Assembly: GCF_050003625.1 (NCBI RefSeq) | Contig: NC_134398.1 | Location: 196,299,700-196,363,699 of the forward strand | DNA: 64,000 nt | Reading direction: 5' to 3' | From: Haematobia irritans | Taxonomy: Eukaryota > Arthropoda > Insecta > Diptera > Muscidae | Part shown: positions 10,370 through 57,711 of the stretch, one piece after another | Layout of the letters: every line of letters begins with the position of its first letter | How positions within the stretch are numbered: the stretch's first letter is position 1 | Notes under the pieces: generated by a model | Databases searched by the model: none | The model's input: only the letters and a program-made list of their open reading frames with translations | What the model was told of the DNA's origin: nothing | Program-made: the position numbers and the translations under genes

Positions 10370-12055
10370 AATTTTGACAAAATTTTCTATAGAAATAAAA
10401 TTTTGAAAAAATTTTCTATTGACATGAAAATTTGACAAAGTTTTCTACAGAAATAAAATTTTGACAAAAATTTCACAAAATGTTCTATAGAAATAAAATT
10501 TTCTATAGAAATACAATTTTGAAAAAATTTTCTATAGAAATAAAATTTTGACAAAATTTTCTATAGAAATAAAATTTTGACAAAATTTTCTAAAGAATAA
10601 AATTTTGACAAAATTTTCTACAGAAAAAAAAAATTGGAAAAATTTTCTATAGAAATAAAATTTTTACAAAATTTTCTATAGAAATAAAATTTTGATAAAA
10701 TTTTTTATAGAAATGAAATTTTGAGAAAATTTTCTTTATAACTAAAATTTTGACAAAATTTTCTATAGAAATAAAACGTTGATAAAATTTTCTATAGAAA
10801 TAAAATTTTGACAAAATTTTCTATAGAAATAATTTTTTGACAAAATTTTGTACAGAAATAAAATTTTGACAAAATTTTCTATAGAAATAAAATTTTGACA
10901 AAATTTTCTATAGAAATAAAATTTTTACAAAATTTTTCTATAGACATAAAACTTTTACAAAATTTTCTACAGAAATAAAATTTTGAAAAAAATTTCACAA
11001 AATGTTCTATAGAAAAAAATTAGACTAAATTTTCACAAAATGTTCTATAGAAATAAAATTTTGACAAAATTTTCTATAGAAATAAAATTTTGACAAAATT
11101 TTCTAAAGAAATAAAATTTTGACAAAATTTTCTATAGAAATAAAATTTTGACAACATTTTCTATAGACATAAAATTTTGACAAAATTTTCCATAGAAATA
11201 AAATTTTGACAAAATTTTCTATAAAAATAAAATCTTGACAAAATTTGCTATTGAAATAAAATTTTTACAAGATTTTGTAAACAAATAAAATTTTCACAAA
11301 ATAAATTTGACAAGCATACTCTTCCTCTGTTGGTTAAGCTATACTTGTAGTTTAGTCAATGCATGGCTTTAAGCTGAGATCAAAAACAACAATATAGAAA
11401 TAAAATTTTGACAACATTTTCGGTAGAAATAAAATTTTGACAAAATTTTCTATAGAAATAAAATTTTGACAAAATATTCTATACAAATAAAATTTTGATA
11501 AAATGTTTTATAGAAATCAAATATTGACAACATTTTCTTTTGAAATAAAATGTTCAAAAAATTTCCTATGGAAATAAAATTTAGACAAAATTTTCTATAA
11601 AAGAAAAATTTACACAAAATTTTCTACAGAAATAAGATTTTGACAAAATTTTCTATCGAAATTAAATTTTTACAAAATTTGCTATAGAAATAAAATTTTG
11701 ACAAAATTTTCTATAGAAATAAAATTTTGACAAAATTTTCTATAGAAATAAAATTTTGACAAAATTTTCTATAAAAATAAAATTTTGACAAAATGTTCTA
11801 TAAAAATAAAATTTTGACAAAATTTTTTATAAAAATAAAATTTTGACAAAATTTTCTATAAAAATAAAATTTTGACAAATTTTCTATAAAACTAAAATTT
11901 TTTGTAAAGAAATAAAATTTTCACAAAATTTTCTACCGAAATTAAATTTTTACAAAATTTGCTATAGAAATAAAATTTTGACAAAATGTTCTATAGAAAT
12001 AAAATTTTGACAAAATTTTCTATAGAAATAAAATTTTGACAAAATTTTCTATAGA
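10370..12055 (+). repeat. Higher-order repeat copy 1 (about 1.69 kb)
   Basis: The diagnostic variants TTCTATTGACATGAAAATT, ACAGAAAAAAAAAATTGG, GTTGATAAAATTTTC and the embedded 92-bp unit fragment occur in this order. They recur in the next block with an offset of 1687 bp at the start and 1686 bp further on. Confidence 0.85.
11301..11392 (-). repeat. Fragment of the ribozyme-bearing 427-bp unit
   Basis: The reverse complement matches the first about 92 bp of the units at 20087 and 20514. It includes CTCAGCTTAAAGCCATGC and CAAGTGTAGCTTAACCAACA with minor changes. The ribozyme part is absent. The same fragment recurs at 12987-13078 in the duplicated block, and a shorter piece lies at 9953-10000. 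Confidence 0.85.
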
Positions 12056-13740
12056 AAATTTTGACAAAATTTTCTATAGAAATAAAATTTTGAAAAAATT
12101 TTCTATTGACATGAAAATTTGACAAAGTTTTCTACAGAAATAAAATTTTGACAAAAATTTCACAAAATGTTCTATAGAAATAAAATTTTCTATAGAAATA
12201 CAATTTTGAAAAAATTTTCTACAGAAATAAAATTTTGACAAAATTTTCTATAGAAATAAAATTTTGACAAAATTTTCTAAAGAATAAAATTTTGACAAAA
12301 TTTTCTACAGAAAAAAAAATTGGAAAAATTTTCTATAGAAATAAAATTTTTACAAAATTTTCTATAGAAATAAAATTTTGATAAAATTTTTTATAGAAAT
12401 GAAATTTTGAGAAAATTTTCTTTATAACTAAAATTTTGACAAAATTTTCTATAGAAATAAAACGTTGATAAAATTTTCTATAGAAATAAAATTTTGACAA
12501 AATTTTCTATAGAAATAATTTTTTGACAAAATTTTGTACAGAAATAAAATTTTGACAAAATTTTCTATAGAAATAAAATTTTGACAAAATTTTCTATAGA
12601 AATAATATTTTTACAAAATTTTTCTATAGACATAAAACTTTTACAAAATTTTCTACAGAAATAAAATTTTGAAAAAAATTTCACAAAATGTTCTATAGAA
12701 AAAATTTAGACTAAATTTTCACAAAATGTTCTATAGAAATAAAATTTTGACAAAATTTTCTATAGAAATAAAATTTTGACAAAATTTTCTAAAGAAATAA
12801 AATTTTGACAAAATTTTCTATAGAAATAAAATTTTGACAACATTTTCTATAGACATAAAATTTTGACAAAATTTTCCATAGAAATAAAATTTTGACAAAA
12901 TTTTCTATAAAAATAAAATCTTGACTAAATTTGCTATTGAAATAAAATTTTTACAAGATTTTGTAAACAAATAAAATTTTCACAAAATAAATTTGACAAG
13001 CATACTCTTCCTCTGTTGGTTAAGCTATACTTGTAGTTTAGTCAATGCATGGCTTTAAGCTGAGATCAAAAACAACAATATAGAAATAAAATTTTGACAA
13101 CATTTTCGGTAGAAATAAAATTTTGACAAAATTTTCTATAGAAATAAAATTTTGACAAAATATTCTATACAAATAAAATTTTGATAAAATGTTTTATAGA
13201 AATCAAATATTGACAACATTTTCTTTTGAAATAAAATGTTCAAAAAATTTCCTATGGAAATAAAATTTAGACAAAATTTTCTATAAAAGAAAAATTTACA
13301 CAAAATTTTCTACAGAAATAAGATTTTGACAAAATTTTCTATCGAAATTAAATTTTTACAAAATTTGCTATAGAAATAAAATTTTGACAAAATTTTCTAT
13401 AGAAATAAAATTTTGACAAAATTTTCTATAGAAATAAAATTTTGACAAAATTTTCTATAAAAATAAAATTTTGACAAAATGTTCTATAAAAATAAATTTT
13501 GACAAAATCTTCTATAAAAATAAAATTTTGACAAAATTTTCTATAAAAATAAAATTTTGACAAATTTTCTATAAAACTAAAATTTTTACAAGATTTTGTA
13601 AAAAAATAAAATTTTCACAAAATTTTCTACCGAAATTAAATTTTTACAAAATTTGCTATAGAAATAAAATTTTGACAAAATGTTCTATAGAAATAAAATT
13701 TTGACAAAATTTTCTATAGAAATAAAATTTTGACAAAATT
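12056..13740 (+). repeat. Higher-order repeat copy 2 (about 1.69 kb)
   Basis: A tandem copy of the preceding block. It differs by scattered single-base changes and small indels; for example AATAATATTTTTAC replaces AATAAAATTTTTAC. A third, partial copy of the leading variants (TTCAATTGACATGAAAATT) begins near 13985. Confidence 0.85.
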
Positions 13741-19494: not shown

Positions 19495-20086
19495 CAGTGT
19501 TGCCAAAATTTGAAGAAAATCTTAACACAAATTCTCCCAAACAAATAATTCTATAGAAAATTTTGTGAAAATTTTATTCTTGTAGAAATTTTTGTCAAAA
19601 TTTTATTCCTGAAGAAATTTTTGTCAACCCTTTATTCTATAGACAATTTTGTCAACATTTTATTTCTATCGAAAATTTTGTCAACATTTTATTCCTAAAC
19701 AATTTTTTTCACAATTTTATTTCTATAGAAAATTTTGTCAAAATTTTATTTCTATAGAAAATTTTTTCAAAATTTTTTCTTCTATAGAAGATTTTGCTAA
19801 AATTTTATTTCTATAGAAAATTTTGTCAAAATTTTATTTCTATAGAAAATTTTTTTCAACATTTTATTTCTATAGAAAATTTTTTGAAAATTTTTTTTCT
19901 ATAGAAAATTTTTCCAATTTTTTTTCTATAAAAGATTTTGCCAAAATTTTATTTCTATAGACAATTTTGTCAAAATTTTATTTCTATAGAAAAATTTGTC
20001 GAAATTTGATTTCTATAGAAAAATTTGGTAAAAATTTTATTTCTATAGAAAAATTTCTATAAAACATTTTTTTCAACATTTTATTT
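19495..20086 (-). repeat. 29-bp minisatellite array, reversed
   Basis: About 20 monomers in the orientation TTTCTATAGAAAATTTTGTC. The left edge has GTTGCCAAAATTTG, as at other arrays. The right side runs directly into the ribozyme-bearing unit. The array resumes as a short tail (21915-22008) after that unit. Confidence 0.9.
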
Positions 20087-20513
20087 CGTTATTGTTGTTT
20101 TTGATCTCAGCTTAAAGCCATGCATTGACTAAACTACAAGTGTAGCTTAACCAACAGAGGAAAAGTGTGTTTGTCAAATTTATTTGGGCAAAGCCCTATA
20201 GACTGCAAGATGATTGGATGTACAGCTGTTTCGGAATTACCACATTCCTCATCAGCATCCTCTACTTGCAGCAAAACTATCAACCAATTATCAGAATAAA
20301 TTCGGGTGATTCACTCAACCCAAAGAGAACTACACTTGAACCTCCCGAAAAAGGGTTTGATAGTCGGCTATTGCCTAAACAAATTTGCCAGCATATCTCT
20401 TTTCCTTTGCCAAACTCAAATCATCGATTTGAATGTATTTGGCTGGGTTTGTTTTTGACCGTGCTTCCTCTATCTTCATTCGTTTTGTTTGTTATTGTTG
20501 GCTTCTCTTCAAT
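20087..20513 (-). repeat. 427-bp ribozyme-bearing repeat unit, copy 1
   Basis: A complete unit. The next copy starts at 20514 with the same words (GTTTTTGATCTCAGC, CATGCATTGACTAAAC, GTGTAGCTTAACCAACAGAG), so the two are a direct tandem with a 427-bp period. The minus strand carries a hammerhead ribozyme at 20271-20203. Known hosts of such ribozymes are Penelope-like retroelements, retrozymes and some satellites; I see no reverse transcriptase or GIY-YIG sequence, so this could be a non-autonomous relative. The 130-codon + strand frame over it (20167-20559) is probably fortuitous. Confidence 0.8.
20203..20271 (-). ncRNA. Hammerhead ribozyme (type I-like, short stem III)
   Basis: Read on the minus strand: outer helix CTGCAAG (20271-20265), internal-loop bases TAGA, stem I strand GGATG, core CTGATGA, stem II GGAAT-loop-ATTCC, core GAAAC, a tiny stem III (C...G closing a 4-nt AGCT loop), cleavage triplet GTA, stem I strand CATCC (20220-20216), internal-loop bases AATCAT, then outer helix CTTGCAG (20209-20203). 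Both stem I segments pair perfectly, and the internal loop is placed for the known stem I-stem II tertiary contact. The predicted cut lies between 20221 and 20220 on the minus strand. The very short stem III resembles ribozymes of Penelope-like elements, which often work as dimers; this unit is tandem. Confidence 0.85.
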
Positions 20514-20606
20514 CGTCATTGTTGTTTTTGATCTCAGCTTAAAGCCATGCATTGACTAAACTACAAGTGTAGCTTAACCAACAGAGGAAAAGTATGCTTG
20601 TCAAAT

Positions 20607-21771
20607 TTATTCAGTTGTCAAAATGCCGTCCAAGCAAGAAGAGCAGCGTATCAAAATTTTGCTCGCGCATCGCGAAAATCCGAGCTACTCGCACGCAATG
20701 CTGGCAAAATCGCTAAAAGTTGCCAAATCAACCGATACAAATGTAGTTAAAGTGTTTGGGGAACGTTTGTCGACAGCCAGGAAGTCTGGATCGGGGGGGA
20801 ATCGATAACCGGAAGCCGCTGAGACGACAAAGAGAGTTGCCGGTAGTTTCAAGCGAAACCCTAACCTCTCTCTCTCCGAGATGCCGCAAATAAGCTGGGT
20901 GTATCGTCTACAACCGTGCATCGAGACAAAAAACGAGCCGGACTATCGACTTAGAAGAAGGTAGTGACTCCAAATCGCGATGATAAACAAAATACGACGG
21001 CCAAAGCGCGATCCCGGAGGCTGTACACGACGATGCTGACGAAGTTTGACTGCGTGGTAATGGACGACGAAACCTACGTCAAAGCCGACTACAAGCAGCT
21101 TCCCGGACAGGAGTTTTATACGGCAAAAGGAAGGGGAAAGGTAGCAGATATTTTCAAGCACATAAAACTGTCAAAGTTCGCAAAGAAATATCTGGTTTGG
21201 CAAGCCATCTGTACCTGTGGCTTGAAAAGCAGCATTTTCATAGCTTCCGGGACTGTCAACCAAGAAATTTACGTGAAAGAGTGTTTGAATAAACGTCTGC
21301 TGCCTTTCCTGAAGAAATACGGTTGTTCCGTACTGTTTTGGCCGGATTTGGCATCTTGCCATTACGGTAAAAAGGCCATGGAGTGGTACGCCGCCAACAA
21401 CGTGCAGGTGGTTCCCAAGGACAAGAACCCTCCCAACACGCCAGAGCTCCGCCCAATTGAGAAATACTGGGCTATTGTCAAGCGGAACCTAAAGAAGGCA
21501 AAAAAAACTGCTAAGGACGATCAGCAGTTCAAGGCAAACTGGCTTTCTGCGGCGAAGAAGGTGGACAAGGTGGCTGTACAAAATCTGATGGCAGGTGTCA
21601 AGCGTGAGGCCCAGCAATTCGGATTTGGAAAAGCGAAAGCCTAACTGAATATTTTTCCTGAATTTTATACTAATTGAACTTGAAAAAGAAATTTAATTTG
21701 ATTTTTTAAATAAACGATTTCACCGATTTACACGCGTTTTCCCTTGACCAAATTTTGATCGTATCACCCTT
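20607..21771 (+). mobile_element. DD37E Tc1/mariner-like transposon, left end deleted
   Basis: The right end carries the subterminal sequence ACCAAATTTTGATCGTATCA and CCCTT immediately before TA at 21772. That TA equals the TA of the intact unit at 20221-20222, so it is the target dinucleotide. The matching left terminal repeat is absent: the unit sequence CAAATTTATT joins CAGTTGTCAAAATG just before the transposase ATG. The transposase is broken (see the pseudogene entry), so this copy is dead. Confidence 0.85.
20623..21644 (+). pseudogene. DD37E (ITmD37E-type) transposase, broken
   Basis: About 341 codons, the length expected of Tc1/mariner transposases. The N-terminal part reads MPSKQEEQRIKILLAHREN with a helix-turn-helix region. 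A stop at 20806-20808 interrupts it. A lost base near 20883 shifts the frame after LSLSEM, and the next frame reads AANKLGVSSTTVHRDKKRAG, a second helix-turn-helix. A further stop lies at 20952-20954. From 20955 the catalytic domain is open: first Asp in VVMDDETYV, second Asp in FWPDLASCHYG, and Glu in LRPIEKYW with 37 residues between the second Asp and the Glu. That spacing plus the WPDLASCHY motif identifies the DD37E clade first described in mosquitoes. It would cut and rejoin element ends at TA sites if intact. Confidence 0.9.
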
Positions 21772-21822
21772 TACAGCTGTTTCGGAATTACCACATTCCT
21801 CATCAGCATCCTCTACTTGCAG
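21772..21822 (-). ncRNA. Split hammerhead ribozyme, copy 2 (stem I 3' strand lost)
   Basis: On the minus strand CTGCAAG, TAGA, GGATG, CTGATGA, stem II GGAAT/ATTCC, GAAAC, AGCT and GTA are identical to copy 1. The sequence after GTA is the DD37E element in place of CATCC. Without the stem I partner it cannot fold as a complete ribozyme. Confidence 0.8.
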
Positions 21823-21914
21823 CAAAACTATCAACCAATTATCAGAATAAATTCGGGTAATTCACTCAACCCAAAGTGAACTACACTTGAACCTCCCGAA
21901 AAAGGGTTTGATAG

Positions 21915-22734
21915 TTCTATAGAAATTTTTGTCAAAATTTTATTTCTATAGAAAATTTTGTCAATAGTTTATTTCTATAGAATTTTTTTTTCAAAATTTT
22001 ATTTTTACACCCAGAAAAAAGCGACACCTTCTTTAAGTTAAAATGAACTCATTGTGAAGAAAGTTGAAAAGACATTTTTATTTTTTTGAACGATGTGATT
22101 TTCGTTGAAATTAGGCAGAATGCATTCCATATATTAGTTAACATTTTCCTATATTTATGTACCCTCATACAGCAGAATGAAAAAATTTAACTGAATTGAA
22201 TTCATATATGGGGTGATTTGATTGAACTTTTTTCATTCATTGGGACAAATCTTACATATTTGTGGTAAACCTTTCTACTTCAAACTTAGAACTGCTTACC
22301 TTCGTTTTTGAATACAATTTTATTTATTTATATAGGCAATTTTTTCTTCAATAAAATACACGTTTTATTAATATATTAAATATATTTATTAAGAATAAAC
22401 AGCATCGACTGGCCTTGAAATATTAGTTTGTTATTCCACTATTTCCAATTTCCATGTAATGTCATCAACAGTAAAACGCATTTTCTTCTTCTTGTACCTT
22501 TCACTTTTAATAAGTTGCTGCGTAACGATTATAAAATATCATAAACCAATTTTTTCCCAAAAGGTTAGCGTCACCGAATGTTACCTGTTAATTGAAGATT
22601 CCAAAATGAAAACGAATGAACATAATTTGTTCTCACTAATTTAAAATAACAAATATTTTATATGTTCTATTTGCTATTTATTATATTATTTTTTAACAAT
22701 CCCTCCGCATACCATAACAACGCGATTCCAACTA
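21915..22734. other. Minisatellite tail, then sequence with one MITE-like end
   Basis: Three to four reversed 29-bp monomers run to about 22008. Then ACACCCAGAAAAAAGCGACAC looks like the outer end of another MITE of the CAC...GAAAAAA type, but I could not find its partner. The rest to 22734 is AT-rich and unrecognised; the frame at 22459-22644 has no recognisable domain. Confidence 0.45.
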
Positions 22735-31490: not shown

Positions 31491-32391
31491 TGTTGCCCGA
31501 TTTTCCAAAATTTTACCATGAAATTCTCTTGATTGACTCTCCAATTAAGAGGTACAATTTTCTATACAAATACAATTTTGACAAAATTTTCTATAGAAAT
31601 AAAATTTTGACAAAATTTTCTATAGAAATAAAATTTTGACAAAATTTTCTATAGAAATAAAATTTTGACAAAATTTTCTATAGAAATAAAATTTTGACAA
31701 AATTGTCTATAGAAATAAAATTTTGAGAAAATTGTCTATAGAAATAAAATTTGAGAAAATTTTCTATGGAAATAAAATTTTGATAAAATTGTCTATAGCA
31801 ATAAAATTTTGACAAAATTTTCTGTAGAAATAAAAGTTTGACAAAATATTCTATAGAATTCAAATTTTGACGAAATTTTCTATAGAAATAAAATTTTGAC
31901 AAAATTTTCTATAGAAATAAAATTTTGACAAAATTTTCTATAGACATAAAATTTTGAGAAAATTGTCTATACACATAAAATTTGAGAAAATTTTCTATAG
32001 AAATAAAATTTTGATAAAATTGTCTATAGAAATAAAATTTTGACAAAATTTTCTGTAGAAATAAAAGTTTGACAAAAAATTCTATAGAAATAAAATTTTG
32101 ATAAAATTTTCTAAAGTAATAAAATTTTGATAAAAATATCAGTAGCAATAAAATTTCGATAAAATTTTCTAAGAAATAAAATTTTGACAAAATTTTCTAT
32201 AGAAATAAAATTTTGACAAAATTTTCTGAAGAAATAAAATTTTGACAAAATTTTCTATAGAAATAAAATTTTGACAAAATTTTCTGTAGAAATAAAATTT
32301 TGACAAAATTTTCTATAGAAATAAAATTTTGACAAAATTTTCTATAGAACTAAAACTTTGACGAAATTTTCTATAGAAATATTTTTTTTTT
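31491..32391 (+). repeat. 29-bp minisatellite array
   Basis: About 29 monomers. The edge has GTTGCCCGATTTTCC and CCAATTAAGAGGTACAATTT, matching the edge at about 2310. Monomers with GTCTATAGAAATAAAA are common in this block. It ends at a T run that opens the ribozyme-bearing unit. Confidence 0.9.
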
Positions 32392-32745
32392 GTTTTTTTA
32401 TTTCCGTCTAAAACCATACATTGACTAAACTACAAGTGTAGCTTAACCAACAGAGGAAAAGAATGTTTGTTTGGTTGGATGGACGCACGTTTCGGAATTA
32501 CCCCATTCCTCATCAGCATCCTCTACTTGCAGCAACACTATCAACCAATTATCTGAATAAATTCAGGCAGTTCATTAAACCTAACAATGAACCACGCTTG
32601 AACCTTCCGAAAAAAGGTTTTGTATGATAGCCGGCTTATGCCGAAATAAATTCGAAACAAACATATCTCTTTTCCTATACCACTGTCAAATCATCGATGT
32701 GAGTGCAATTGGCTGGGTTTATTTTGAGCGTGCTTCCTCTTCTTT
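32392..32745 (-). repeat. Ribozyme-bearing unit, diverged copy 3
   Basis: It shares CATACATTGACTAAACTAC, GTGTAGCTTAACCAACAGAG, the ribozyme, CTATCAACCAATTATC, the TGAACC(T)TCCGAAAAA line, and AATCATCGAT with copy 1. The segment GGGCAAAGCCCTATAGACTG of copy 1 is missing, including the outer ribozyme helix. Its orientation relative to the flanking minisatellite is opposite to that at 20.1 kb. Confidence 0.85.
32477..32521 (-). ncRNA. Hammerhead ribozyme, diverged copy
   Basis: On the minus strand: stem I GGATG (32521-32517), CTGATGA, stem II GGAAT-GGGGTA-ATTCC, GAAAC, a tiny stem III with loop GTGC closed by C-G, cleavage triplet GTC, and stem I CATCC (32481-32477). All core bases and both stems are kept, while the stem II loop, stem III loop and third triplet base differ from the 20.2-kb copy (GTA to GTC, both permitted). 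The outer stem I helix is lost. Predicted cleavage is between 32482 and 32481. Confidence 0.8.
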
Positions 32746-45170: not shown

Positions 45171-47232
45171 TTATACCCTCCACCATAGGATGGGGGGTAT
45201 ATTAACTTTGTCATTCCGTTTGTAACACATCGAAATATTGCTCTAAGACTCCACAAAGTATATATATTCTGGGTCGTGGTGAAATTCTGAGTCGATCTGA
45301 GCATGTCCGTCCGTCCGTCCGTCTGTTGAAATCACGCTAACTTCCGAACGAAACAAGCTACCGACTAGAAACTTGGCACAAGTAGTTGTTATTGATGTAT
45401 GTCGGATGGTATTGCAAATGGGCCATATTGGTCCATTTTTACGAATAGCCCATATAAACCATATAAACGGACCCCCAAATTTGGCTTGCGAGGCCTCTAA
45501 GAGAAGCAAATTTCATCCGCTCCGGCTGAAATTTGGTACATGGTGTTAATATATGGTGTCTAACAACCATGCAAAAATTTGTCCACATCGGTCCATAATT
45601 ATATATAGCCCCCATATAAACCGATCCGCCGATTTGGCTTGCGAGGCCTCTAAGAGAAGCAAATTTTATCCGATCCGGCTGAAATTTGGTACATGGTGTT
45701 AGTATATGGTCTCTAACAACCATGCAAAAATTGGTCCACATCGCTCCATAATTATATATAGCCCTCATATAAACCGATCCCCCGATTTGGCTTGCGAGGC
45801 CTCTAAGAGAAGCAAGTTTCATTCGATCCGCCTGAAATTTGGTACATGGTGTTAATATATGGTGTCTAACAACCATGCAAAAATTTGTCCACATCGGTCC
45901 ATAATTATATATAGCCCCCGTATAAACCGATCCGCCGATTTGGCTTGCGAGGCCTCTAAGCGAAGCAAATTTCATCCGATCCGGCTGAAATTTGGTACAT
46001 GGTGTTAGTATATGGTCTCTAATAACCATGCAAAAATTGGTCCACATCGGTCCATAATTATATATAGCCCCAATATAAACCGATCCCCCGATTTGGCTTG
46101 CGAGGCCAAATCGGGGGATCGGTTTATATGGTGATCGGATGAAATTTGGTACATGGTGTTAGTATATTGTCTCTAACAACCGTGCAAAAATTGGGCCACA
46201 TCGGTCCATAATTATATATAGCCCCCATATAAACCGATACCCCGATTTGGCTTGCGAGGCCTTTAAGAGAAGCAAATTTCATTCGATCCGGCTGAAATTT
46301 GGTACATGGTGTTAGTATATGGTCTCTAACAACCATGCAAAAATTGATTCACATCGGTCCATAATTATATATAGCCCCCATATAAACAAACCGATCACCA
46401 GATTTGACCTCCGGAGCCTCTTGGAAGACCAAAATTCATCTGATTAAGGTGAAATTTGGTACGTGGTGTTAATATATGGCCTCAAACACCCATGCAAAAA
46501 TTGGTCGAAATCGGTCCATAAATATATATAGGCCCCATATAAACCGATCCCCAGATTTGACCTCCAGAGCCCCTTGGAAGAGCAAAATTCTTCCCATTCG
46601 GTTGAAATTTGGTACGTGATGTTAGTATATGGTATCCAACAACCATGCTGGAATTGGTTCCTATCAGCCCATAATTATATATAGCTCCCATATAAACCGA
46701 TCCCCAAATTTGACCTCCGGTGCCTTTTGGAGAAGCAAAATTCATCCGATCTGCTTGAAATTTGGTACGTGGTGATCGTATATGATATTTAACAACCATG
46801 CAAAAACCGATCCCGACATTTGGTTTTGGAGCCTCATGGAGGAGCAAATTTCATCCGAGTGAGTTGAAATTTGGTACATTGTGCTAGTATATGGTCGTTA
46901 ACAACCATGCCTAACTAGGTCCATATCGGTCTATAGTTATATATAGCCCTCAGATAAATCGATCCCCAATCACACAAAAATTGGTCCATATCAAGTTCAT
47001 AATTGTATATAGCCCCCATATTTGTAGACTTAACTATACATAACTTTTGTGTCTAATATATACCATGTATGGACTAACTCACAATTTAGAAAACGATGTT
47101 AAGAAATTTTAAGATACCACAACCCAAGTATTTCGATTGTGGATGGCAGTCTTTCGTAGAAGTTTCTACGCAATCCATGGTGGAGGGTACATAAGATTCG
47201 GCCTGGCCGAACTTACGGCCGTATATACTTGT
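45171..47232 (+). mobile_element. Complete HINE-like element, group B (best example)
   Basis: 5' TATACCCTCCACCATAGG, GTCATTCCGTTTGTAAC, CTAAGACTCCACAAAG, then core GAGTCGATCTGAGCATG with GTCCGTCCGTCCGTCCGTCTG (about 45305). About ten units of 153 bp follow (for example TCCATAATTATATATAGC at 45592 and 45745). The 3' block has the CCACAA...TTGTGG stem, CCATGGTGGAGGGTAC, and GGCCTGGCCGAACTTACGGC with TATATACTTG plus a T run. The insertion sits in a T run. The array keeps an open minus-strand frame of 202 codons made of 51-codon repeats. Confidence 0.9.
46073..46129. repeat. Perfect hairpin made by a local inversion in the HINE array
   Basis: Two 25-bp arms separated by TTGCGAG. The left arm contains ACCGATCCCCCGATTTGGC and the right arm GCCAAATCGGGGGATCGGT. 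It interrupts the regular unit series. Confidence 0.9.
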
Positions 47233-47460: not shown

Positions 47461-49735
47461 AGACGATATAACAATGTCCGTCTGTCTGTCTATTGTAATC
47501 ACGCTATAGTCTTTTATAAAGTAGCTATAGTCCTGAAATTTGGTACAGAATCTTTTGTCTGCACGCCAGCCAAGTTAGAAGATGAGCTATATCAATCCAG
47601 GTTTTGATGTAGCTCCCATATAAACCGATCCCCCGATTTGGGATCTTGGGCTTTTAGAAACCGTTGTTTTTAGCCAACTTGCCTGAAATTTCAAATCTAG
47701 AGATATTCTAGGACCATAAAGAGGTGTGCCGAAAATGGTGATTATCGGACCATGTTTTGATATATCCCCCATATATGTTAGTCCGATCTCCCGTTTTTAC
47801 TTCTAGAATCCGTAGTTTTTATTCAATTTGCCTGAAATTGGAAATCTAGAGGTATTCTAGGACCGTAAAGAGGTGTGCGGAAAATGGTGAGTACCGATCC
47901 ATGGTTTGATATAGCCCCCATATAGACCGATCTCCGATTTCATTTCTTGGTCTTCTAGAATCCGTAATTTTTACCCAATTTGCCTCAAATCGGAAATCTA
48001 GAGGTATTCTAGGACCTTAAGGAGGTGTGCCGGAAATGGTGAGTATCGGTCCATGTTTTGATATAGCCCCCATATAGACCGATCTCCCGATTTTATTTCT
48101 TGAGCTTCTAGAATCCGTAGTTTTTATCTAATTTGCCTGGAATTTGAAATCTAGAGGTATTCTAGAACCATAAAGGCGTGTGTCGAAAATGGTGAGTACC
48201 GGTCCATGTTTTGATATAGCGCCCATATAGACCGATCTCCCGATTTTATTTCTTGGTCTTCTAGAATCCGTAATTTTTACCCAATTTGCCTCAAATCGGA
48301 AATCTAGAGGTATTCTAGGACCTTAAGGAGGTGTACCGGAAATGGTGAGTATCGGTCAATGTTTTGCTATAGCCCCCATATAGACCGATCTCCCGATTTT
48401 ACTTCTTGGCCTTCTATGATCCGTAGTTTTAATCCAATTTACCTGCAATTGGAAATCTAGAGTTATTCTAGAAATCTAGAGGTATTCCAGGACCTTAAGG
48501 AGGTGTACCGGAAATGGTGAGTATCGGTCCATGTTTTGCTATAGCCCCCATATAGACCGATCTCCCGATTTTACTTCTTGGCCTTCTATGATCCGTAGTT
48601 TTAATCCAATTTACCTGCAATTGGAAATCTAGAGTTATTCTAGAACCATAAAGACGTGTGTCGAAAATGATGAGTACCGGTCCATGTTTTGATATAGCCC
48701 CCATATAGACCCATCTCCCGATTTTATTTCTTGGTCTTCTAGAATCCGTAATTTTTACCCAATTTGTCTCAAATCGGAAATCTAGAGGTATTCTAGGACC
48801 TTAAGGAGGTGTACTAGAAATGGTGAGTATCGGTCCATGTTTTGCTATAGCCCCCATATAGACCGATCTCCCGATTTTATTTCTTGGCCTTCTATGATCC
48901 GTAGTTTTAATCCAATTTACCTTCAATTGGAAATCTAGAGGTATTCTAGGAAAATAAAGAGATGTGCCGAAAATGGTGATTATCGGTCAATGTTTTGATA
49001 TAGCCCCCATATAGACCGATCTCCCGATTTTACTTCTTGGGCTTCTAGAATCCGTAGTTTTTACCCAAATTGCCTGAGATTGGAAATCTAGAGGTATTCT
49101 AGGACCAAAGGGGTGTGCCGAATATATTGAGTATCGGAACAGTTTTTGGTATAGCCCCCTTATAAACCGGCCCTCTGATTTGGGATCTAGATTCTAGAAC
49201 TACAATTAAATGTGCTGAATACTGTGTGTATCCTTCCATATATTGGTATAGCCCCCATTACACCGAACTCCCGATTTAACTACTAGGGTTTCTAGAAATT
49301 GTAGATTTTATCCGATTTGCCACAAATTGAAAATATACTGGTATTTTAGACTCGTAACAAGGTGTATATGATTTAGTTTTACCGGTCCATTTGGTAAGGC
49401 CTACATATAGACCGATTTCGCTTATTGAGGGTATAGAAGGCGCATTGATCATGAAAATTGCATGAAACTGAATGCAAAATTTCCAGATTTTCCATATGAT
49501 TCCTCTAAAACTCAAACAAAAAATGGTTCTTATAAATTCAGAATCTGATGTAGTCTTCATAGGTAAAATATTTACATTTATCTTCGGGAAGCGTACTGGT
49601 TGAACAGATCTGCTTGGGAAAATATTTTTCATCAAACCCTACCTGAAATTTTCAAAGGAAACTATTATTTTTGATTCATGGTGGTGGTATTTAAGATTCG
49701 GCCTTGCCGAACTTACTACTGTATATACTAGTTTT
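47413..49735 (+). mobile_element. Complete or near-complete HINE-like element, group C
   Basis: It opens with a 48-nt perfect hairpin (47413-47460). Then come CTAAGACGATATAACAATG and GTCCGTCTGTCTGTCTATTG. About eleven units have the 153-bp spacing; for example GAGTA.CGGTCCATGTTTTG is at 48041 and 48194. The typical line is CCCATATAGACCGATCTCCC. The 3' end has CATGGTGGTGGTATTTAAG, ATTCGGCCTTGCCGAACTT and ACTGTATATACTAG plus Ts. Group C has CACCACCAT where group B has CTCCACCAT. Confidence 0.8.
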
Positions 49736-52404: not shown

Positions 52405-53612
52405 GAAAAACAAGTATATACGGCCGTAAGTTCGGCCAAGCCGAATCTTATGTACCCTCCACCATGGATTTCAACTCACATGGTTGTTAAATATCATATA
52501 CTACCACCACGTACCAAATTTCAACCAGATCGGATGAATTTTGCTTCTCCAAAAGGCACCGGAGGTCAAATCTGGGGATCGGTTTATATGGGAGCTATAT
52601 ATTATTATGGACTGATAGGAACCAATTCCTGCATGGTTGTTGGATACCCTATACTAACATCACGTACCAAATTTCAACCGAATGGGAAGAATTTTGCTCT
52701 TCCAAGGTGCTCCGGAGGTCAAATCTGGGGATCGGTTTATATGGGGCCTATATATAATTATGGACCGATATCGACCAATTTTTTCATGGGTGTTTGAGGC
52801 CATATATTAATATCACGTACCAAATTTCAACTGAATCAGATAAATTTTGGTCTTCCAAGAGGCTCCGGAAGTCAAATCTGGTGATTTGTTTATATGGGGG
52901 CTATATATAATTGTGGACCGATGTCGACCAATTTTTGCATGGTTGTTAGAGACCATATACTAACACCATGTACCACATATCAGCCGGATCGGATGAAATT
53001 TGCTTCTCTTAGAGGCTCCGCAAGCCAAATCGGGGGATCGGTTTATATGGGGGCTATATATAATTATGGACCGATATGGACCAATTTTTGCATGGTTGTT
53101 AGAGACCATATACTAACACCATGTACCAAATTTCAGCCGGATCGTATGAAAATTGTTTCTCTTAGAGGCTCTGCAAGCAAAATCGGGGGATCGGTTTGTA
53201 GGGGGGCTATATATAATTTTGGACCGATGTGAACCAATTTTTTCATGGTTGTTAGAGACCATGTACTTACACCATGTACCAAATTTCAGCCCGATCGGAT
53301 GAAATTTGCTTCTCTTAGAGGCCTCGCAAGCCAAATTTGGGGGTCCGTTTATATGGGGGCTATACGTAAAAGTGGACCGATATGTCCCATTTGCAATACC
53401 ATCCGACCGACATCAATAGCAACTACTTGTGCCAAGTTTCAAGTCGATAGCTTGTTTCGTTCGGTGGTTAGCGTGATTTCAACAGACGGACATGCTCAGC
53501 TGACTCAGAATTTCACCACGACCCAGAATATATATACTTTATGGGGTCTTAGAGCAATACTTCGATGTGTTATAAACGGAATGATAAAGTTAATATACCC
53601 TCCATCCTTCAT
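52405..53612 (-). mobile_element. HINE-like element, group B, internally deleted 3' block
   Basis: AACAAGTATATACGGCCG, AAGTTCGGCCAAGCCGAATC and TACCCTCCACCATGG are followed directly by array sequence. The CCACAA...TTGTGG and TTGCCGATGGCAA stems are missing. About six units follow, then a shortened core CAGACGGACATGC (53489) and CAATACTTCGATGTG. It ends AATATACCCTCCATCC with the 5' repeat damaged. Continuous open frames cover the units. Confidence 0.8.
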
Positions 53613-56414: not shown

Positions 56415-57370
56415 ATACCCTCCACCGTAGGATGGGGGTATATATAACTTTGTCATTCCGTTTGTAACACATCGAAATATTGCTCTAAGACCCCATAAAG
56501 TATATATATTCTGGGTCGTGGTGAAATTCTGAGTCGATCTGGGCATGTCCGTCCGTCCGTCTGTTGAAATCACGCTAACTTCCGAACGAAATAAGCTATT
56601 GACTTGAAACTTGGCACAAGTAGTTGTTATTGATGTAGGTCGGATGGTATTGCAAATGGGCCATATCGGTCCACTTTTACGTATATCCCCCATATAAACG
56701 GACCCCCAAATTTGGCTTGCAGACCCTCTAAGAGAAGCAAATTTCATCCGATCCGGCTGAAATTTGGTACATGGTGTTAGTATATGGTCTCCAACAACCA
56801 TGCAAAAATTGTTCCACATCGGTCCCCATATAAACCCGATTTGGCTTGCGAGGCCTCTAAGAGAAGCAAATTTCATCCGATCCGGCTGAAATTAGGTGCA
56901 TGGTGTTAGTATATGGTCTCTAACAACCATGCAAAAATTGGTCGACATCGGTCCATAATTATATATAGCCCCCATATAAACCGATCCCCCGATTTGGCTT
57001 GCGAGGCCTCTAAGAGAAGCAAATTTCATCCGATCCGCCTGAAATGTGGTACATGGTGTTAGTATATGGTATCTAACAACCATGCAAAAATTGGTCCACA
57101 TCGGTCCATAATTATATATAGCCCCCATATAAACCGATCACCAGATTTGACCTCCGGAGCCTCTTGGAAGACCAAAATTCATCTTATTCAGTTGAAGTTT
57201 GGTACGTGGTGTTAATATATGGCCTCAAACTACCACGTATGGACTAACTCACAATTTAGAAAACGATGTTAAAAAGTTTTAAGATACCACAACCCAAGTA
57301 TTTCGATTGTGGATGACAGTCTTTCGTAGAAGTTTCTACGCAATCCATGGCGGAGGGTACATAAGATTCT
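56415..57370 (+). mobile_element. HINE-like element, group B, 3' terminus replaced by mariner sequence
   Basis: Normal 5' end (ACCCTCCACCGTAGGATG), core with GTCCGTCCGTCTG (56548), and about five units. The 3' block includes ACCACAACCCAAGTATTTCG and CCATGGCGGAGGGTACATAA. At GATTC the expected GGCCTGGCC hairpin and TATATACTTG are absent, and mariner coding sequence begins. Confidence 0.8.
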
Positions 57371-57711
57371 TCATATGGGGCCGTTTCGGCCTTCAAACGC
57401 CCCAATAACGCCATATAGTAGTCACTGTTGATGTTTTTTCCCTTCTCAAGATAATCGATAAAAATTATTCCATGCGCTTCCCAAAAAACAGAGGTCATTA
57501 CTTTTCCAGCGGACTTTTGAGTCTTTCCACGCTTCGGAGACGGTTCACCGGTCGCTGTCCACTCAGCCGACTGTCGATTGGACTCAGGAGTGTAGTGATG
57601 GAGCCATGTTTCATCCATTGTCACATATCGACGGAAAAACTCGGGTGTATTACGAGTTAACATGTGCAAACACCGCTCAGAATCATCAACACGTTGTTGT
57701 TAAAATGTAAG
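57371..57711 (-). pseudogene. mariner transposase fragment
   Basis: On the minus strand it reads QQRVDDSERCLHMLTRNTPE, then FFRRYVTMDETWLHHYTPES (first catalytic Asp in MDETW), SAEWTATGEPSPKRGKTQKS, and VFWEAHGIIFIDYLEKGK to LKAE. This is the centre of a mariner-family transposase. Before QQRV there is a stop (57700-57702). After LKAE a small deletion shifts the frame, and KRPHMK can be read in the next frame before the break. The N-terminal DNA-binding part, the second and third catalytic Asp, and both terminal repeats are missing. Confidence 0.9.

Follow-up and report, generated by a model that had tools for sequence, protein, structure and literature searches.

Metazoan non-LTR retrozymes carry a type I hammerhead ribozyme in units of 150-450 bp and occur in many phyla, including insects (PMC7229834). 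Penelope-like elements (PLEs) were proposed in 2020 as their carriers, while the mobilizing enzyme was left open (PMC7229834, PMC7761336). The first of these papers describes the hammerhead satellites of newts, schistosomes, and cave crickets as transcribed and self-processed repeats (PMC7229834). In the Poseidon element of Anolis, an AC-rich stem loop contains two neighboring internal sites from which reverse transcription starts, and this explains the "tail" of 30-40 bp in its genomic copies (PMC11167929). The protein of this Penelope element cleaves the target after ATT on either strand and extends both ends. Its hammerhead is dispensable for insertion in vitro and showed no cleavage when the protein was absent (PMC11167929).

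The window analyzed in this study is a stretch of 64,000 nucleotides of DNA from the horn fly (Haematobia irritans), a blood-feeding muscid. It contains copies of a 427-nt repeat that we consider very probably a metazoan non-LTR retrozyme mobilized by PLEs.

The hammerhead ribozyme and its 427-nt unit

A complete hammerhead had been proposed by a first-pass annotation at positions 20203-20271, and a second reading of the minus strand confirmed that this observation is real, with all helices and coordinates correct. Stem I is composed of the inner strands GGATG (20260-20256) and CATCC (20220-20216), an internal loop with the sides TAGA (20264-20261) and AATCAT (20215-20210), and, across this loop, the 7-bp outer helix CTGCAAG (20271-20265) and CTTGCAG (20209-20203), which is present as annotated. 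The core consists of CTGATGA (20255-20249) and GAAAC (20232-20228), separated by stem II (GGAAT, 20248-20244, and ATTCC, 20237-20233) with the loop GTGGTA (20243-20238). The motif AGCT (20227-20224) is followed by the GTA cleavage triplet (20223-20221), which is well placed, and the predicted cleavage site falls between 20221 (A17) and 20220 (C1.1). Helix III, ACAGCUGU (20222-20229, minus strand), has the palindromic loop AGCU, and an 8-bp helix III would be possible between two ribozymes.

The layout, read from the letters, was also recovered by a type I descriptor (CTGANGA, a stem II of 4-5 bp, GAAA, one helix III pair, UH, and a 5-bp stem I), which matched the window twice, both times on the minus strand with cores at 20255 and 32516, and never in 100 first-order simulations of the window. 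The CUGANGA and GAAA motifs, the NUH triplet, three helices, and an open-ended stem I of type I ribozymes are all present and are kept in the consensus of both subfamilies described below. Of the 69 ribozyme positions of the window copy, 68 agree with the family consensus; the one that departs from it is in the internal loop of stem I. The 76-nt ribozyme strand folds better than its shuffles (z -3.56), and its minimum-energy monomer fold is not the hammerhead, with the core GCUG paired to the CAGC of loop III.

No hammerhead was matched by Rfam at the gathering score over the whole window, nor up to an E-value of 10 over a 1001-base stretch. When short stretches were submitted, the best match of the window copy was RAGATH-1-hammerhead (11.9 bits against a cut-off of 56.3, E 7.7), and two sister copies matched Hammerhead_1 (16.2 and 16.1 bits against a cut-off of 34, E 0.15 and 0.22); these sub-threshold matches align with the correct hammerhead layout. 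The first-pass annotation had named a lack of covariance-model hits above threshold, together with a lack of cleavage in vitro, as grounds against the ribozyme. The Rfam half of this is what was found in the stretches tested, and it is outweighed by the evidence from copy number, subfamilies, and simulations.

There are 11,499 exact copies (5842 + 5657) of the 28-nt core in the assembly of 1.17 Gb and none of its reversed control, and copies of the unit were found on all five large contigs. A DNA search of the genome, in which 40 of 1757 candidates were scored, returned 59 matches, where the high-scoring ones were 97-98% identical. The consensus unit is 427 nt long, with a GC content of 38.6%, a longest A run of 5, and longest frames of 58 aa in the sense and 76 aa in the antisense direction. 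Like retrozymes, it thus has a GC content below 50% and no coding capacity, and it falls within their size range of 150-450 bp, with a single type I hammerhead per unit and full or partial tandem copies. Among 65 pieces of subfamily A, in a set partly chosen by long matches, 36 exceeded one unit and reached up to 3.0 units. The reverse transcriptase (RT) and GIY-YIG frame of Penelope elements is missing from the unit, where no frame exceeds 76 aa. The annotated reading of a non-autonomous ribozyme element is supported, in the form of a 427-bp retrozyme; its placement inside a 29-bp minisatellite holds as an association, as the unit is not confined to this repeat.

Two subfamilies were distinguished after the exclusion of eight loci, which were also left out of the variant-sharing and abutting-piece counts below. 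Among 109 unit copies whose ribozyme region is complete, this region read GAAACAGCTGTA in 71, GAAACGTGCGTC in 28, and other variants in 10; a looser assignment gave 88 copies of subfamily A and 39 of subfamily B. The two consensus sequences differ at 49 positions, with five differences among the 69 ribozyme positions and 44 among the other 358, where some rest on as few as seven B copies. All five ribozyme differences fall within loop III or at the H17 base and disturb neither the helix pairing nor the NUH triplet. The block free of consensus differences (unit positions 345-418 and 1-50) is larger than the ribozyme, and other functions may therefore share it.

Helix III is self-complementary in both subfamilies, perfectly as ACAGCUGU and with G-U pairs as ACGUGCGU. 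By predicted energies that leave tertiary contacts out, the core is closed in the minimum-energy monomer of either subfamily, while the cofold minimum of subfamily A is a dimeric hammerhead with both cores open (-49.5 versus -44.2 for two monomers) and that of subfamily B (-48.8) is not a hammerhead.

The window copy occupies 20086-20611 on the minus strand (526 bp, or 1.23 units, running from position 37 of one unit to position 135 of the following one), with its 3' end at 20086. A 5' part, apparently of the same insertion (unit 284-427), lies at 21772-21915 on the same strand. The two pieces appear to form one insertion of about 1.65 units with a mariner-type transposon between them, where 36 unit positions were lost at the split. 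The transposon (20612-21771), which has apparently lost its left end, interrupts the retrozyme at the TA of GUA and contains a 229-aa frame (20955-21644) that we take to be a mariner/Tc1-type transposase. Position 21772 (unit 427) was considered as an end made by the ribozyme, and is better explained by the mariner-type insertion at this TA. The outer flanks are a 29-bp and degenerate satellite on the 3' side (19549-20085), joined directly after ATT of the plus strand, and the 29-bp satellite on the 5' side (21916-22004). When joined, these flanks form a continuous satellite in register that was cut exactly after ATT, with neither target-site duplication nor loss.

Other copies in the window include one of the sister subfamily (32384-32744, minus strand), whose core at 32516 reads GAAAC-GUGC-GUC and whose 3' outer strand of stem I is missing, and two 5'-truncated copies on the plus strand (unit 36-131), at 11299-11394 within the satellite and at 12985-13080. 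The latter two have identical ends and flanks in one satellite array, and probably arose when about 1.7 kb of the satellite was duplicated. The window also contains another transposase-frame fragment at 57256-57699, presumably of mariner type, and tandem arrays of about 153 bp, for example at 45459-46806, 47596-49169, and 52479-53384.

Insertion ends and the 29-bp satellite

The ends of insertions, taken as alignment ends accurate to a few nucleotides, were collected from two sets of loci. Set A (L002-L029) gathers loci similar to a 536-bp query, a choice that favors long copies. Set B (L031-L080) was taken from the first 13 Mb of contig C1 and combined its first 30 core matches with 20 stretches covering the next 27 or so listed places; conservation of the core in set B is partly built in, as its members were picked by the exact core. 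Nine loci that are the window itself or overlap other loci were dropped from the end counts, which left 27 loci in set A and 44 in set B.

Of the 103 outer 3' ends, 89 fell in unit 122-180 (39 of 43 in set A and 50 of 60 in set B), and 14 outside. These 89 tail-type ends lie 122-180 nt after the cleavage site and form two clusters, with 48 in unit 122-142, 40 in unit 158-180, and one between. Inserted copies hence end at either of two AC-rich sites inside the unit, located some 130 and 170 nt beyond the point of cleavage. In the window copy, part of the first site (unit 122-135) is at 20086-20099, joined to the satellite at 20085/20086; the complete first site (unit 122-142) lies at 20506-20526 within the upstream partial unit, and the second (unit 158-180) is internal, at 20468-20490. 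The unit folded as a circle reaches -130.5 kcal/mol, versus -91.0 +/- 5.2 for 100 shuffles (z -7.5). In this predicted fold, unit 119-133 (AAAAACAACAATAAC) is an AC-rich hairpin loop into which the first site falls, and most of the second AC-rich stretch is left unpaired (20 of the 23 positions of unit 158-180).

None of the 103 outer 3' ends was found within 3 nt of the cleavage site. The 5' ends were scattered, with one of 105 in unit 122-180 (0 of 46 in set A and 1 of 59 in set B) and three within 3 nt of the cleavage site. Two of these, at unit 1 in L017 and L061, were rejected as alignment breaks because the element continues upstream, and the third (L039, unit 426), 1 nt from the cleavage site, is a head-to-head joint. 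The ends show that the copied RNA was continuous across the cleavage site and often longer than one unit.

Where unit pieces abut, 21 pairs were head-to-head, one was tail-to-tail, and two were on the same strand. Target duplications accompany some of the head-to-head insertions, with 18 bp in L005, which is outside the satellite, and 14 bp in L074 (by eye). Duplications of 9 bp were seen by eye in L003 and L073, although in the satellite two cut repeats would look alike. Their lengths of 9-18 bp agree with the duplications of over 4 bp that retrozymes have when they have any; the window insertion has none. These observations bear on the proposal of an ordinary satellite, spread by unequal crossing-over and segmental duplication, that carries a fossil ribozyme. 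While some arrays do reach three units and flanks are repeated in L023 and L027, such a history is extremely unlikely given the fixed 3' and scattered 5' ends, the head-to-head pairs and target duplications, and the presence of copies on all five large contigs.

The 29-bp satellite flanked 54 of the 89 tail-type 3' ends, compared with a background of 27% of 1131 positions in the same loci and about 19% of 640 sampled positions in the window. With three ends from the window included, there were 57 satellite-flanked ends, 54 of which agreed with the satellite in at least 18 of 24 positions. The most frequent phase was F1-2 (18 ends), with the junction before (A)ATAAAATT, followed by R18-20 (11 ends), with the junction before AATTTTATTTC, plus or minus one A. 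Both phases are at, or within one base of, the ends of two ATT motifs on opposite strands, about 9 nt apart; if one shared base is allowed, the primer strand therefore ends in ATT in both. The other 25 of the 54 well-placed ends were spread over other phases. The remaining 35 of the 89 tail-type ends lie outside the scored satellite, in AT-rich targets without a single clear motif, and a few of the 36 listed non-satellite targets resemble the satellite below the scoring threshold. The satellite association reflects insertion, with junctions as expected of a Penelope-like element cutting after ATT. Besides these cuts, which characterize the preferred phases and not all ends, the unit shares with Penelope elements the two-site 3' tail and the tandem and inverted copies.

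Resident Penelope-like elements and the probable mobilization of the unit by them

Penelope-like elements are abundant in the same genome. With a Penelope RT probe, all of the 150 candidates scored (of 751) were matched at 31-40% identity; 31 of the 150 lie in open frames of at least 800 aa, the longest of 901 aa, and three have a stop inside the match. A 520-aa Penelope piece matched 450 proteins at an E-value of 0.001 among 8000 scored candidates. The 120 best of these 450 included proteins of Haematobia, Stomoxys, Musca, Lucilia, and Drosophila virilis, many of which carry RVT_1, and PF26215 was among the precomputed domains of the matches listed. RVT_1 was found in three of the four Penelope pieces scanned, one just below the cut-off. 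The fourth is the C-terminal end, which by eye bears what we take to be a GIY-YIG-like motif. The GIY-YIG Pfam model gave a single match among 25 candidates in the genome, presumably the host gene SLX1, as it looks like from its neighbors and adjoins MED31; the model therefore misses the nucleases of these Penelope elements.

Hammerhead-like CTGANGA ... GAAAUAUU sequences were recognized by eye beside the frame in L082, L083, and L089, and with a changed core in L088. These minimal hammerheads may also act only as dimers. Of 27 pairs of Penelope neighbors within 8 kb, 20 were head-to-head, seven were on the same strand, and none was tail-to-tail. The 3' ends of one Penelope family were sampled in 20 slices and L086, where 18 of the 21 could be read (L096 runs on, the end of L101 lay out of reach, and L100 gave no match). 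Ten of the 18 were at +92 to +99 and eight at +123 to +127 after the family's own hammerhead cleavage site. Twelve of the 18 lie in the 29-bp satellite, and in 10 of the 12 the junction range, with shared bases allowed, includes F1-2 or R18-20, the exceptions being L104 and L106. Judged by eye, the ends of L087 and L088 likewise fall in the satellite, at these two types of position, and that of L089 falls in another repeat.

It is the two-step tail, the satellite target, and the inverted pairs, all shared by the two kinds of element, that make Penelope machinery the most likely means by which the retrozyme is mobilized, and insertion of the unit by this machinery is a strong inference from the shared junctions. 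The tail spacing differs, at about 37 nt in the retrozyme and about 30 nt in the Penelope family. Mobilization by a LINE, an ordinary non-LTR retrotransposon, would also account for the 5' truncation, the short target duplications, and the target-primed junctions, and LINEs are to be expected in a fly. This explanation is very unlikely in view of the two internal 3'-end sites about 37 nt apart, the longest A run of 5, the head-to-head excess, and the resident Penelope copies with the same satellite target and two-step tail.

Similarly, the unit could be a deletion derivative of a Penelope element (a pLTR without the gene) instead of an independent retrozyme. The same order of a hammerhead followed by AC-rich 3'-end sites, the same targets, and a short AC-rich similarity seen by eye (AAAAACAACAA) fit this origin. 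However, no blastn alignment between the unit and four Penelope stretches was better than E 0.07. The hammerheads differ as well, with an internal loop in stem I and a tetraloop on helix III in the unit, but a loopless GAAAUAUU ending, as seen by eye, in the Penelope elements. A derivative origin is thus very unlikely, as judged on these four stretches.

For an independent retrozyme inserted by Penelope machinery, the template is most likely uncut, circular, or multimeric retrozyme RNA. Read-through transcripts of the unit would undergo cleavage by the type I hammerhead, probably for the most part when the palindromic helix III ACAGCUGU joins two ribozymes, and the resulting pieces may be closed into circles of 427 nt. 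Judging from the junctions and the published biochemistry, the Penelope protein would cleave the target after ATT on both strands, frequently within the 29-bp satellite, and would start cDNA at the two AC-rich sites with either or both of the 3' ends as primers. One primed end would yield a simple 5'-truncated insertion, and two primed ends would yield head-to-head inverted pairs, sometimes with target duplications of 9-18 bp.

A circular template is a weaker claim than insertion by Penelope machinery, because a linear multimer or uncut read-through RNA gives the same junctions. Variants were shared at 23 of 268 variant sites within insertions versus 187 of 21,795 between insertions, where at least 14 of the 23 came from L042 and L069 and some of the positions also vary between subfamilies. 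Divergence within insertions (2.4%) was not lower than between them (2.0%). The shared variants hint, if weakly, at copying from one template.

More tentatively, and with a probability well below even, the retrozyme could be a specialized parasite of Penelope elements, in which the ribozyme acts as a length sensor that needs dimeric helix III pairing, and the satellite, Penelope elements, and retrozyme reinforce one another. Only RNAs of at least two units would then pair through helix III, cleave, and give monomers, while a closed monomer circle would keep its ribozyme misfolded and persist as an endless template. The Penelope protein would bind the AC-rich tail, cleave the 29-bp satellite after ATT on both strands, and prime on the circle from one or both ends.

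Comparison with known retrozymes and Penelope elements

The kind of retrozyme found here is already known, and the new part is the junction evidence. In the searchable literature on retrozymes, on Penelope and minisatellites, and on Haematobia, surveyed mainly through titles and abstracts, no report of junctions shared between retrozymes and Penelope elements was found. The horn fly combines thousands of retrozyme copies with many long-frame Penelope elements that share the two-step tail, the target, and the inverted pairs. As all of these occur in one genome, the carrier role guessed for Penelope elements in 2020 becomes directly testable, and an in vitro system could be built from the RNA start sites, target DNA, and enzyme of the fly itself.

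The unit has in common with metazoan non-LTR retrozymes the type I hammerhead, the unit size, tandem copies, low GC content, the lack of a protein, and a stable circular fold (PMC7229834). Its weak helix III with a palindromic tetraloop resembles the amphibian motifs described in that paper (PMC7229834). In contrast to the retrozymes described in the text available, the horn fly unit has a dipteran host, a two-cluster 3' tail, and a mapped satellite target (PMC7229834). The hammerhead satellites of newts, schistosomes, and cave crickets belong to other lineages and have other sequences, and the text available describes no Penelope junctions for them (PMC7229834).

The unit is unlike Poseidon in that it codes for no protein (longest sense frame of 58 aa) and in the loops of its hammerhead, an internal one in stem I and a tetraloop on helix III. 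With the Poseidon of Anolis it shares a hammerhead upstream of two internal 3' sites, a tail of 30-40 bp, cuts after ATT on both strands, and tandem copies (PMC11167929), and its junctions follow the Anolis pattern, with the two sites about 37 nt apart and the first of them about 130 nt after the cleavage site (PMC11167929).
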